Below, in pieces: positions 5,514 to 56,465 of a stretch of DNA of 64,000 nt. Origin of the DNA: Methylocystis iwaonis (GTDB lineage: Bacteria > Pseudomonadota > Alphaproteobacteria > Rhizobiales > Beijerinckiaceae); the NCBI RefSeq assembly GCF_027925385.1, contig NZ_AP027142.1:2772001-2836000 (forward strand). The letters run 5' to 3'. Position numbers and translations under genes: made by a program. Positions within the stretch are counted from its first letter, which is position 1; each line of letters opens with the position of its first letter. The notes under the pieces are model-generated. The model searched no databases and was not told where the DNA came from. It saw only the letters and a list, made by a program, of their open reading frames with translations.

Positions 5514-5867
5514 CTAATCGCAGACCTGGGCCCTGCGATAGCCGACGACATTGCCCCAGCCGTCCACGACCGGGCGATCGACGGGGTAACAGTCGCCGCC
5601 ATAATAGCCGCCGTAGCCGGTCCCATATTGGGGCTGACTCATCGCGCCGGCGGCGACGCCGAGCGCCAGACCGCCGATCGCGGCGGCGGCGGCCGCGCCG
5701 CCATTGTCCCAACCGCCATGATGATGTCGCCAGCCGCCATGATGCCCCCAGCCGTAGCCGCCATGCCAGCCCCAGCCATCGGCGGCGGCGGCGGGCGAGG
5801 CGGCGCCCGCGCCGAGCAATCCGGCCAAAACAGTGAGAGCGATTGTCTTTCTGACATTCAGGCGCAT
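5514..5867 (-). CDS. Secreted Gly/His/Trp-rich small protein
   Basis: 117 residues from ATG 5867, with GGAG upstream. Residues 1-29 form a classic signal peptide (MRLNVRKT, hydrophobic core, Ala-rich cleavage site). The mature N-terminus is a low-complexity stretch of Gly, His and Trp (about 30-57), followed by an Ala/Gly-rich hydrophobic segment (57-76) resembling a glycine-zipper, then a Tyr/Gly segment. Two cysteines (about 92 and 116) could pair in the tail. It is divergent from the response regulator at 6036. The function is unknown; envelope stress or metal binding through the His cluster is speculation. The first bases of its coding region and upstream DNA recur as a relic at 7929-8010. 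Confidence 0.7.
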   Translation of the reverse strand: MRLNVRKTIALTVLAGLLGAGAASPAAAADGWGWHGGYGWGHHGGWRHHHGGWDNGGAAAAAAIGGLALGVAAGAMSQPQYGTGYGGYYGGDCYPVDRPVVDGWGNVVGYRRAQVCD

Positions 5868-5972
5868 CGGAGGCTCCCTTGGATCGAGGCTTTCCCTCGG
5901 CCTCATGAAGCGACTATCGCGCCGCGCGCCTGAACCGAAGGTGTCCACGCCGTTCAGCTTCCAGTCAGCTTT

Positions 5973-7895: not shown

Positions 7896-7930
7896 TTTTA
7901 ATTGGGTAGCGCTTCGATACAGTTCGGCTT
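7896..7930 (+). repeat. 35-bp repeat, copy 1 (partner at 9949-9983)
   Basis: TTTTAATTGGGTAGCGCTTC and the following bases match 9949-9983 with about six to seven differences. Both copies lie immediately downstream of an accessory gene. Confidence 0.5.
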
Positions 7931-8062
7931 TCTGACATTCAGGCGCATCGGAAGCTCCTTGGATCGTGCTTTCCCTCGGCCTCATAAAGCCACTATCTTG
8001 CGGCGCGCTTGCATTTGCGCACCCGGACAGAGCGGGCGATACAGGCGCTATCGCAACGGTAA
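7929..8062 (+). pseudogene. Fused relic of the 5.8-6.7 kb locus (response-regulator 3' end)
   Basis: Bases 7929-8010 match 5848-5931 at roughly 90% (the 5' end of the Gly/His-rich gene and its upstream DNA). Bases 8011-8062 match 6638-6688, the last codons of the response regulator, at about 84%. Translated, 8009-8062 reads LHLRTRTERAIQALSQR and stops, against LHLRSRTELAIRALSER in the intact gene. The two pieces are normally about 700 bp apart, so the relic is a duplicated locus with an internal deletion. The LysE start codon follows the relic stop by one base. Confidence 0.75.
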
Positions 8063-17874: not shown

Positions 17875-17977
17875 GTCATTCCCGATCGGGAATCCTGTCC
17901 TGGCGTGGATGCCCGCGACAAGCGCGGGCATGACGCGGCTGCGTAGGGTTTGTTATTCCTCCCGCCGGGAATGACAT
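17875..17977. repeat. Repeat fragments: family B piece and solo family A arm
   Basis: GTCATTCCCGATCGGGAATC (17875-17894) is a short family B fragment. 17902-17934 is a single family A arm (GGCGTGGATGCCCGCGACAA onwards), identical to the right arm of the 2802-2939 element. A family B end GGGAATGAC lies near 17968-17976. Confidence 0.7.
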
Positions 17978-21926: not shown

Positions 21927-21953
21927 AGCCGCCCATCATTGCGAGCGTCGCCC

Positions 21954-22029
21954 GTCATTGCGAGCGAAGCGAAGCAATCCAGGGCCGCAACACGGCTCTG
22001 GATTGCTTCGCTTCGCTCCTCGCAATGAC
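21954..22029. repeat. Dispersed palindromic repeat, family C (long hairpin)
   Basis: Arms of about 33 bp (GTCATTGCGAGCGAAGCGAA onwards, and its inverted copy ending CAATGAC) surround a 7-nt loop. A half copy of this element, starting GTCATTGCGAGC, occurs inside cobN at 54242. On RNA it would form a long stem that could also stop or protect transcripts of the two convergent genes. Confidence 0.85.
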
Positions 22030-22039
22030 GGTTATCGAC

Positions 22040-50051: not shown

Positions 50052-50094
50052 GCTTTTTATACTATTTCCGTTTGAGTAGCTTGCGTTGGCGCTT

Positions 50095-50197
50095 GTCATT
50101 CCCGACGGGCCGAAGGCCCGATCGGGATCCAGAGCCGCAAAAACGCTGGTTTTGCTCTGGATTCCCGATCGCTCGCTGCGCGAGCGATCGGGAATGG
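50095..50197. repeat. Dispersed palindromic repeat, family B, copy 2
   Basis: GTCATTCCCGACGGGCCGAA onwards, with CCAGAGC / GCTCTGG arms and a GCGAGCGATCGGGAATGG end; near-identical to 1465-1566. It lies between the fatty-acid-hydroxylase gene and cobO. Confidence 0.8.
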
Positions 50198-53012: not shown

Positions 53013-56000
53013 ATGCACCTCCTGCCGCGCGATCTCCATAGTCTCGACGACGCCGGCGCGGCGACGGATCTCGGCCAGACTCCGGCCGACATTGTCTTCC
53101 TGTCTTTTTCCGACTCCGAGCTGCGCCTGCTGGCGCGATTGCATGTGCGCGACGAGCGGCTTGCAAGCCTGCGCTGCGCACCGCTCGCGCAACTGAAACA
53201 CCCCTACTCCGTCGATCTCTATCTCGACACAGTCGCGCGTCACGCCAAGCTCATCGTCGTGCGGCTTCTGGGCGGCAAGGATTATTGGGCTTATGGCGTC
53301 GAGCAACTCGAAGCGCTGGCCCGCACGCACAATATTGCACTCGCCATCGTGCCGGGCGACACGGTCGAGGACATCCGTCTCGCTCAGGCGTCGATCCTAG
53401 ATGCCCAAGCCCTCAATCGCATCTGGCGTTTTTTCCAGGATGGCGGCCCCGATAATTTTCGCTCATTTCTGGCCTACGCATCGACGCTCGCCGGGCGCCC
53501 CACCGATTGGCGCGAGAGCGTTCCGGTCGCCAATGCCGGCCGTTTCACGCAGGCCTGTCGCGCAGCCGAGGGCGAGGCGCCGCGCGCGACGATTGTCTTC
53601 TATCGCTCGCTTTATCTTGCCGACGATGTTGCGCCGATCATCGCGCTCGCGGATGCGCTCAATGACCGTGGTTTCAGGGTTGACGCCCTCTACGTCGCAA
53701 GCCTCAAGGAGCCCGAGAGCGAAGCTTTTATAACGCAGGCGCTCGACGCATTCGCGCCCGACGTCATTCTCAACGCCACCGCCTTCTCCGCACGCCGCGA
53801 CTCGGGCGGCGTGCTCGACCGCGCCGACGCGCCCGTCTTGCAAGTCGCGCTCGCCACCTGCACGCGCGACGCATGGGAAGCCTCCGCACGCGGCGCCAAC
53901 GCCGCCGACCTCGCGATGAATGTCGTGCTGCCGGAAGTTGACGGCCGCATCTTCACCCGCGCCATCTCCTTCAAGGAAACCGCGCCGCGCGGCGCCGCCG
54001 AATTGGACGAGCCCCGCCATGCGCCGGAGCAGTCGCGCATCGCTTTCGTTGCGGAGCTAGCCGCGAATTGGGCGCGCCTGCGCCGCAAATCGAACGCCGA
54101 GAAAAGCCTTGCGCTGATTCTCTCCGATTACCCCGCGCGTCGCGGACGCAGCGGATATGCGATCGGCCTGGACGCCGAAGCGAGCGTCGTGGAGATCACC
54201 GCAGCGCTGGGCCACGCCGGCTACGCGATAAACGATCCTCCGTCATTGCGAGCCGAAGGCGAAGCAATCCAGAGCAACGCCACGAACGCCGCGGAAATCC
54301 CCTCTCCCGCCTGCGGGAGAGGGTGGCCCCTGCGTAAGCAGGGGTCGGGTGAGGGCCCTCATCCGTCACCGCTTCGCGGCGACACCTTCTCCCGCGAGCG
54401 GGAGAAGGAGGGATCACGATCAATCATTCGCGCACTCGAAGAATGTGCGCAGACGGTCGCCGTCAAGCTCACCGACTACACGCGCCTACTCGAATCGCTT
54501 CCTGCAAATTTCGTCGCAAGCCTCAACGACGCATGGGGCGCCCCGCAGGACGACCCCGCGATCGTCGGCGACGCCTTCCGCTTCTCCTGCCTCATCAACG
54601 GCAATCTCGTCATCGCCCTGCAGCCAGATCGCGGCGCGCGCGCCGAGCGCTACGAGACTTACCACGACATGCAACGGCCGCCGCGCCACGCCTATGTCGC
54701 CTTCTATCTCTGGCTGCGTCACATCCGCAAAATCGACGCGCTCATACATCTCGGCGCCCATGGCACGCTCGAATGGCTGCCGGGCAAGTCCGTGATGCTT
54801 TCGCAGGATTGCGCGCCCGAAGCCGTGCTGGGCCCTACCCCGCTCATCTATCCTTTCATCGTCAATGATCCCGGCGAAGCCGCGCAAGCCAAGCGCCGCA
54901 CGAGCGCCGTGACGATCGGGCATCTGACGCCACCGCTCGTCGAGGCCGAACTCTTCGACGCCGCGGCGACGATCGAGACGCTGCTCGACGAATATGCGGC
55001 CGCGGCGTCGCTCGATCCACGCCGCGCGCGCCTCATCGCCGGCGCCATTCTCGATGATACCGAACGCAGCGGGCTCGCGCAGGAATGCGGCGTGACGCGC
55101 GAGACCGACATCGCCGAAACGCTGACGCGACTCGACGCCTGGATGTGCGACCTCAAGGAAATGCGCATCGGCGACGGGCTTCACGTCTTCGGCCGCGCCG
55201 ACGAAGACACAACGCGCAACGCTTGCGGGCTAAGCGAACGCAAGGCGCTCCTCGCCGCGCTTTCGGGCCGCTTCGTCGAGCCCGGCCCGGCCGGCGCGCC
55301 GTCACGCGGCCGCGCCGACGTCATCCCCACCGGCCGCAATCTTTTCTGCATCGATCCGCGCCATGCGCCGACGCAAACGGCTTACGACATCGGCCGCCGC
55401 GCCGCGCATGAAGTGATGACGCGCCATGCGCAAACGCATGGCGAATTTCCCCGCCGCATCATGCTCGATCTCTGGGGCAGCGCGACGATCCGCACCGGCG
55501 GCGAGGATTTCGCGCAGGCGCTCGCGCTTCTCGGCGTCCGGCCGACATGGGATCACCAAAGCGCACGCGTCATCGGCTTCGAGATCTTGCCGCAGGCAAA
55601 GCTCGATTTTCCGCGCGTCGACGTCACGCTGCATGTCTCGGGCCTGTTTCGCGATATGTTTCCCGGCCTCATCGCGCTCTTCAATGACGCCGTGCGCGCG
55701 GTGGCGGCGCTCGATGAAGACGCGGATTTCAATCCACTCAAGGAAGCGCAAGACCTCACGCGCATCTTCGGCGCGGCGCATGGAAACTACGGGCTCGGCG
55801 TCAGCGAGACGATCTTGCGCGGAGAGTGGTCGTCGCCGGACGATCTTGCCCGCGCTTATCTTCAAGCCGGCAGCCATGCGCTCGACCGCGCCGGCGAAAG
55901 TGCGCCCGCTTATGACGCGTTCAGCGCGCAGGTCGCCGGCGCCGACGCCCATGTTCATGTGCAGGACATGGCGGAAGTTGACGTGCTGACCGGCCCCGCC

Positions 56001-56465
56001 TTCGCCGATTTCGAAGGCGGCTTTGCCGCCGCAAATAAAATGCTCGGAGGCGACGCCGCTCTCGTGCATCTCGACGCCACGCGGCCGGAGCGCCTGACCG
56101 CGCGGTCGTTGCAGGACGAGATCGCTCGCGTGCTGCGCATGCGCCTCGCCAATCCGCGCTGGCTCGAAGGCCAGATGCGCCACGGCCATCGCGGCGGCGC
56201 CGAGATCGCGGAAGGCATCGACAATCTTTACGCCTTCGCGGCGACGAGTGGCCTCGTCAGCGACGCGCAATTCGACCTCGCCTTTTCAGCGACGCTCGGC
56301 GACGACAAGGTGCGCGACTTTCTCGCGCGCGAGAATCCGCGCGCCCTGGAGGCGATCGCACACGTCTTTAACGAGGCGCTGACGCGCGAACTCTGGCGCA
56401 CGGGTCGGAACAGCGTGCGCAGCATCTTGATAAGTGTCGGAGGGACCCATGCAGCCGACGCCTGA
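53013..56465 (+). CDS. cobN: Cobaltochelatase subunit CobN with in-frame repeat insertion
   Basis: Inserts Co2+ into hydrogenobyrinate a,c-diamide with CobS and CobT, using ATP, in the aerobic pathway. 1150 residues, the large H-subunit family. Seen: ALIHLGAHGTLEWLPGKSVM, ATCTRDAWEASARGANAADL and MLGGDAALVHLDATRPERL. Residues about 410-471 (PPSLRAEGEAIQSN, PSPACGRGWPLRKQGSGEG, SPLRGDTFSREREKEGS) are not CobN-like. They are encoded by dispersed palindromic repeats, yet the frame is kept. The protein ends overlapping cobG by 17 nt. The cobS and cobT-type chelatase genes are not in this window. Confidence 0.92.
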   Translation: MHLLPRDLHSLDDAGAATDLGQTPADIVFLSFSDSELRLLARLHVRDERLASLRCAPLAQLKHPYSVDLYLDTVARHAKLIVVRLLGGKDYWAYGVEQLEALARTHNIALAIVPGDTVEDIRLAQASILDAQALNRIWRFFQDGGPDNFRSFLAYASTLAGRPTDWRESVPVANAGRFTQACRAAEGEAPRATIVFYRSLYLADDVAPIIALADALNDRGFRVDALYVASLKEPESEAFITQALDAFAPDVILNATAFSARRDSGGVLDRADAPVLQVALATCTRDAWEASARGANAADLAMNVVLPEVDGRIFTRAISFKETAPRGAAELDEPRHAPEQSRIAFVAELAANWARLRRKSNAEKSLALILSDYPARRGRSGYAIGLDAEASVVEITAALGHAGYAINDPPSLRAEGEAIQSNATNAAEIPSPACGRGWPLRKQGSGEGPHPSPLRGDTFSREREKEGSRSIIRALEECAQTVAVKLTDYTRLLESLPANFVASLNDAWGAPQDDPAIVGDAFRFSCLINGNLVIALQPDRGARAERYETYHDMQRPPRHAYVAFYLWLRHIRKIDALIHLGAHGTLEWLPGKSVMLSQDCAPEAVLGPTPLIYPFIVNDPGEAAQAKRRTSAVTIGHLTPPLVEAELFDAAATIETLLDEYAAAASLDPRRARLIAGAILDDTERSGLAQECGVTRETDIAETLTRLDAWMCDLKEMRIGDGLHVFGRADEDTTRNACGLSERKALLAALSGRFVEPGPAGAPSRGRADVIPTGRNLFCIDPRHAPTQTAYDIGRRAAHEVMTRHAQTHGEFPRRIMLDLWGSATIRTGGEDFAQALALLGVRPTWDHQSARVIGFEILPQAKLDFPRVDVTLHVSGLFRDMFPGLIALFNDAVRAVAALDEDADFNPLKEAQDLTRIFGAAHGNYGLGVSETILRGEWSSPDDLARAYLQAGSHALDRAGESAPAYDAFSAQVAGADAHVHVQDMAEVDVLTGPAFADFEGGFAAANKMLGGDAALVHLDATRPERLTARSLQDEIARVLRMRLANPRWLEGQMRHGHRGGAEIAEGIDNLYAFAATSGLVSDAQFDLAFSATLGDDKVRDFLARENPRALEAIAHVFNEALTRELWRTGRNSVRSILISVGGTHAADA
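54241..54425. repeat. Palindromic repeat elements inserted inside cobN
   Basis: 54241-54275 is a half copy of the family C repeat (CGTCATTGCGAGCCGAAGGC onwards). 54299-54413 is a second family, with CCCTCTCCCGCCTGCGGGAG onwards and a TTCTCCCGCGAGCGGGAGAA end. The block is about 185 bp, a length that preserves the cobN frame, and adds about 62 codons. Confidence 0.85.

Follow-up and report, generated by a model that had tools for sequence, protein, structure and literature searches.

The cobN gene and its lengthened linker

The window analysed here is a stretch of 64,000 nucleotides from Methylocystis iwaonis (contig NZ_AP027142.1), whose genome is referred to as G000. Its forward strand carries cobN, with cobW on one side and cobG/cobH on the other. 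The cobN frame remains open through a block of palindromic repeats, and the encoded 1150 residues match CobN equivalog models above their cut-offs, which bears out the original prediction that the block lies in frame and that CobN sequence reads normally both upstream and downstream of it. The features of the locus are the following.

53013..56465, forward strand: cobN, cobaltochelatase subunit CobN, 1150 aa, open frame without a stop through the repeat block
54225..54428, forward strand: expanded linker that separates the motifs ...GHAGY and R.LE and spans 68 residues (405-472)
54241..54272, forward strand: CGTC-tagged REP monomer (family A) with CGTC, ATTGC...GCAAT arms and CCA tail, read as SLRAEGEAIQ (consensus features from PMC3733652)
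54273..54298, forward strand: spacer; at another genomic place (L010), most of it adjoins a B copy that lies upstream of an S21 gene
54299..54410, forward strand: element B, a long palindrome, read as PSPACGRGW...SREREKEG
54300-54323 and 54385-54408, forward strand: terminal hairpins of element B
54327-54344 and 54365-54383, forward strand: internal hairpins of element B, limits set by eye
54353..54384, forward strand: block within B that differs as a unit from the sister alleles L032 and L033
21952..22030, no strand assigned: intergenic dimer of the same CGTC REP as in cobN

Only one CobN match was found in the genome at E <= 1e-100, and CobT was found once. Because cobN is single and CobT is present, the interrupted cobN is presumably the working gene. 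The linker between Y404 and R473 comprises 68 residues, compared with 10 to 22 in the 78 CobN rows scored as insert-free; 49 of these 78 have linkers of 10 to 14 residues, and the commonest length is 12 (19 rows). The sequences of the solved CobN structures 9uk9 and 7c6o align on both sides of site 411. The inserted segment would form a surface loop, and its peptide is likely to be nearly neutral for CobN.

Part A begins with CGTC (54241-54244), and its stem starts with A and T (ATTGC...GCAAT) and is followed by the CCA tail, as the definition of CGTC-tagged REPs requires. By eye, unbroken pairing is confined to ATTGC/GCAAT and the inner pairs are interrupted, compared with the 8-9 bp stem and 4-5 bp loop of the CGTC-REP criterion. 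Part A had been described as the same as a half-repeat at 21954-22029; it does resemble one half of the dimer at 21952-22030, as a close copy and not an identical one. The second palindromic family proposed for the block corresponds to element B, which is distinct from part A and has terminal inverted repeats with 31-nt arms that are 81% complementary, as expected of a MITE. The start of the proposed interval (54241..54425) stands, while its 3' end is too far downstream: the final ~13-15 bases are ordinary linker, and the repeat DNA spans ~54241-54410. The predicted RNA fold of 54236-54430 reached -106.7 kcal/mol, compared with -76.5 +/- 4.7 for 200 shuffles (z -6.45). Elsewhere in G000 (L010, C1:1220536-1220659), a B element together with most of the cobN spacer lies upstream of the gene for ribosomal protein S21. 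Since most of the spacer adjoins a B copy there, the insert may have arrived partly as one composite.

Dispersed copies and sister alleles

With 40 of 335 candidates scored, the block matches G000 strand-wise at least 84 times at E <= 1e-3, a count that includes the block itself. Element B resembles another genomic copy, with identity reaching 96% over 109 bp. The CGTC dimer has at least 80 strand-wise matches at 40 or more places (40 of 259 candidates scored); these places were found with the dimer as query. CGTC-tagged REPs are described as mostly head-to-head dimers, and the cobN copy is a monomer. The possibility that the block matches no repeats elsewhere in the genome, named beforehand as a refutation, is contradicted by these counts.

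Other genes were scanned for the same repeats at 55 further A and B places of G000. Among the places fetched, with single A halves left out, 13 ORFs crossed the repeat at 26 distinct B places besides cobN (14 loci; at least 30 aa on each side), and nine crossed it at 29 A places (at least 60 aa on each side). In none of these 22 crossing ORFs did Pfam families flank the repeat on both sides. Families were present in three B ORFs (L006, L010, and L012), in each case downstream of the repeat, and the remaining 19 had none, which makes the two-sided Pfam test coarse. The suggested search inside other genes returned crossing ORFs, none of them with a Pfam family both before and after the repeat. 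This outcome fits copies being purged by selection and surviving at a tolerant loop.

The Y1 (RAYT) transposase was considered as the mover of the repeats and rejected. Two such genes occur in the genome, and within ~1.5 kb of the two Y1_Tnp loci no A or B match exceeded 19 bases (E 0.012); no active transposase for the repeats was identified at these loci. When occupied and short alleles were compared by eye, no clear target-site duplication was seen.

The insert is common to the related genomes G006 and G022, where it was found as DNA (L032/L065 and L033, respectively), and occurs as protein in P0001 (Methylocystis iwaonis). G006 is classed as the same species, and its CobN is the same as that of Methylocystis sp. 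Sn-Cys (L065). Its recurrence in two related genomes means that the insert is no assembly error, and an artefact of assembly or reading frame can be dismissed for practical purposes. The gaps among the three sister alleles measure 24, 6, and 6 bp. All are multiples of three in a free nucleotide alignment, which was used for the frame argument as codon alignments force gaps to multiples of three. The 24 bp missing from L032 belong to the REP hairpin. In the 32 bases of 54353-54384, L032 and L033 share one hairpin type, like that of L010, whereas G000 has another, which also appears in five of the 12 other B copies aligned from its own genome. This change points to patchwise exchange with a dispersed copy.

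Between G000 and G022, 112 of 112 bases are identical at 54241-54352, third positions included (37/37). Identity is 88-92% in the rest of cobN, falls to 75-85% in the 100 bases that directly flank the stretch on each side, and none of the 1023 100-base windows in the rest of cobN reaches 99%. In the same stretch, G000 and G006 agree in 86 of 88 bases, which is unexceptional, as 106 of 1023 windows elsewhere reach 99% in that pair.

Residue 411 as an insertion hotspot

The CobN set comprised 120 of 7986 homologs (8000 scored candidates) together with genome loci, giving 164 full-length sequences, 131 of them distinct, with that of the window included. Inserts were counted by alignment, with core columns defined at 70% occupancy and a threshold of at least 10 extra residues. 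Such inserts occurred at residue 411 in 52 of the 131 distinct sequences and at 183/185 in eight, while the sole other position, 729, had five (the chimeric P0002 and four proteins of the outgroup). Aligned with its relatives, the segment is either absent or replaced by other repeats, as the original prediction had proposed to check, and the refuting case of relatives carrying it as ordinary CobN sequence did not arise. The recurrence at this site and the sharing of the insert by sister genomes go beyond that prediction.

Six families (A to F) were distinguished by peptide at 411, accounting for 50 of the 52 inserts. The labels are analyst-written peptide patterns and partly assigned by eye: four of the 52 inserts were unmatched, two of which (P0041 and L038) were put in C by eye, while P0077 and P0089 were left unassigned. 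For four families (A, B, C, and F) the insert DNA at 411 is dispersed in the carrier genome. Counted strand-wise and with the insert itself included, family C has 12 matches in G005 and family F has 70 in G133, both with the insert at 411, while families D (76 in G002) and H (40 in G007) were tested with inserts at site 183. Matches to family C were also found in G012 (10) and in G011 (one), whose CobN is without the full C insert.

On the CobN tree, at least 35 changes are required among 13 states, and at least 22 when presence is counted. This is a quick tree of 130 rows, from which the insert columns and the chimeric P0002 were removed; 43 of its 127 inner branches are weakly supported, and the state labels (BI, CI, D, D2, AB, and B) were partly hand-set. 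The count mixes gain, loss, and transfer, and gain and loss are blurred because some insert-free rows hold short remnants (P0020, L053, L055, and L056). Three of these (L055, L053, and L056) are scars that keep the apparent ends of C without its middle. Residue 411 is an insertion hotspot with turnover of families and with shrunken alleles.

In one metagenome-assembled genome (L079), CobN is split at the hotspot into two ORFs, 444 and 732 residues long, that overlap, through either a lost frame or an error in that assembly. L057 holds the same 731-residue piece as L079 and is probably from the same genome.

A second CobN site at ~183 takes repeat inserts as well (L045, L049, L083, and L149-L152), with two in tandem in four g14 genomes. 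In the wider family, matches were found in 70 of 119 genomes. From these, the 30 best loci and 20 regions picked as mostly interrupted-looking or long-framed were taken, of which 45 of 50 had a usable ORF; this choice of rows is biased, and therefore no rate was derived. Large repeat-like inserts recur there at 182-186, and at 411 with family F in L144/L157 (one genome). Family F lies at 411 in another genus (g40, G133). Three loci of other genera carry an insert at a third place, after residue 477 and past the R.LE stretch, which belongs to family F in L155, to B in L156, and to another in L154. A 76-residue insert lies near residue 47 in L138, and near residue 731 many rows hold 12-27 extra residues that are not repeat-like.

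At the hotspot, repeats are also nested in one another. Element I, a two-hairpin repeat of ~60 bp with 92 matches in 20 of the 39 genomes of the genus and none in G000, occupies the loop of a B or C hairpin in L034, L039, and L042, and these alleles exceed comparable ones without it by 60 or 63 bp. The surroundings of element I were examined for 90 of the 92 matches (L196-L285), which gave 86 distinct copies with both flanks, orthologous copies of related genomes being counted separately. A stem of the host repeat (at least 8 pairs with one mismatch allowed, at most 10 nt from the copy ends) flanks 69 of the 86 copies, compared with 3.4% of 2589 random positions; the stems are shorter in the other 17. 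One D-like host context accounts for 40 of the 86 copies, which probably multiplied as a composite or share common descent, and 36 of the other 46 have a stem. Since the hosts of element I share CTCCC/GGGAG (by eye), a sequence target and a loop target are inseparable here. We tentatively suggest, at somewhat less than even odds, that repeat hairpins serve as landing places: element I would enter the apical loop of CTCCC/GGGAG hairpins, so that the first tolerated repeat in CobN would seed further in-frame insertions. If this is true, CobN offers a coding site for following, from species to species, how REPs grow by nesting, are exchanged, and collapse.

Origin and turnover of the inserts

The explanation that we consider probable is that palindromes land throughout the genome and are mostly purged from genes, while the tolerant CobN loops at ~411 and ~183 let in-frame copies stay and then turn over. 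Several short palindromic repeat families would have spread in the genomes of the genus and family by insertion or recombination, and copies entering genes would normally be lost. In-frame copies would survive in CobN because the loops at ~411 and ~183 tolerate extra residues, and the one at ~411 would be among the rare coding sites where selection allows copies to persist. Resident copies could later have patches replaced through exchange with other copies, take up additional palindromes, or shrink to scars by in-frame deletion, and insert alleles could move between species with the surrounding cobN; the present state in this strain, a CGTC REP followed by a B element, would be one outcome of such steps. 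The repeats are dispersed and the frame is kept, while the route of entry would be transposition or recombination. In the shallow clade, some of the turnover may reflect interspecies allele transfer and not new insertion. Neutral drift does not predict the conservation of the insert relative to G022, which counts against this explanation, as do the lack of an identified target-site duplication or active transposase and the broken CobN of L079. Recent allele transfer or a constraint on the hairpin would each suffice for that identity, and neither is offered as a firm explanation.

Spread mainly by allele transfer, that is, by homologous recombination of the insert-bearing cobN stretch after few independent insertions, is a possible but rather doubtful account. 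It would agree with the alternation of B, C, and E alleles between close neighbours in the shallow clade, with downstream linker letters that are common to B and E alleles and absent in C alleles, and with the identity of G000 and G022 insert DNA over 112 bases between differing flanks. However, six families by peptide (four by DNA) call for at least four to six insertions on any tree, and family F at 411 in another genus (g40, G133) also argues against it. Selection for an mRNA hairpin in this region, whichever family supplies it, for example through ribosome slowing between two folding units or through mRNA decay, appears improbable. While the strong fold of the insert (z -6.45), the inverted arms seen by eye in the other inserts available as DNA, and the conservation of third positions relative to G022 could all be read in its favour, 78 of 130 CobN rows are insert-free, near neighbours included and some with short scars, which indicates that loss is tolerated. 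Still less probable, and hardly to be expected, is recruitment of the peptide for a function of CobN, for instance a contact to CobS/CobT: indels in sister strains leave the frame intact, as such a role would have it, but the site holds peptides now of one family and now of another, and no shared peptide feature is apparent.

The preferred explanation, of palindromes surviving at tolerant loops, has counterparts in known systems. Rickettsia palindromic elements (RPE) are described as in-frame inserts in protein genes in the parts of PMC2229807 and PMC3767692 consulted. The likeness to RPE claimed in the original prediction holds in that dispersed palindromes lie in frame within a conserved gene, here cobN, and are read as extra residues. 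They differ in that the cobN repeats are GC-rich, occur in methanotrophs, and strike one gene repeatedly. Rickettsial orthologs, as far as PMC3767692 was covered, share the insert at the same locus, whereas families swap at one locus here; and unlike what RPE would lead one to expect, no crossing ORF at the other G000 places examined had Pfam families flanking the copy on both sides.

CGTC-tagged REPs (Di Nocera et al. 2013, PMC3733652) are reported, in the sections used here, to have intragenic copies and no known dedicated transposase, and part A agrees with them in CGTC, AT-starting arms, and CCA tail, as well as in its intragenic position and in apparently having no transposase of its own. 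Part B and families C to I are not evidently of the CGTC type. For intragenic CGTC/GTAG REPs, the one case of insertion at the same site in these sections is that of recB in two Xanthomonas species; cobN, cobalt, and Methylocystis are absent from the main text of that paper. The parts of PMC3767692 consulted also place WPE and eRPE-4 in one region of the biotin ligase gene. As in CobN, different palindromes occupy one place in one gene, and a hotspot is possible there too; that case involves two families in two genera, whereas six families by peptide occur in CobN. QMITE elements of Coxiella are likewise MITE-like palindromes, some of them in frame in ORFs, and IS1111 prefers a palindromic REP sequence, according to the portions of PMC5896051 consulted, which do not describe a site that recurs across species. 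A search by title and start of the abstract, covering few subscription journals, returned no literature dealing with CobN repeats or with palindromes in coding genes of Methylocystis. In-frame and intragenic palindromes are therefore known from RPE and intragenic REPs, while the multi-family hotspot and the nesting look new.

In the literature, as far as it was covered, in-frame palindromes are mostly catalogued gene by gene, while six families (by peptide) occur at one loop in CobN, a protein of the vitamin B12 pathway. As intact, nested, exchanged, shrunken, and broken CobN alleles exist in living relatives, the rate and route of REP entry are testable in ordinary strain collections, and the CobN repeats form a natural archive of repeat gain and loss within a gene. 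The spot also seems to accept tens of foreign residues, which would be useful for enzyme tagging.

The window holds further repeats outside cobN. By eye, F-type copies (GTGGATGCCCGCGACAAGCGCGGGCATGAC) lie at 2901-2950 and 17896-17945, a repeat type that is found in CobN of another genus. A two-part composite repeat of ~105 bp occurs twice (1452-1555 and 50082-50186), and similar stretches at 5847-5932 and 7928-8011, ~2.1 kb apart, are 86-97% identical in two parts.
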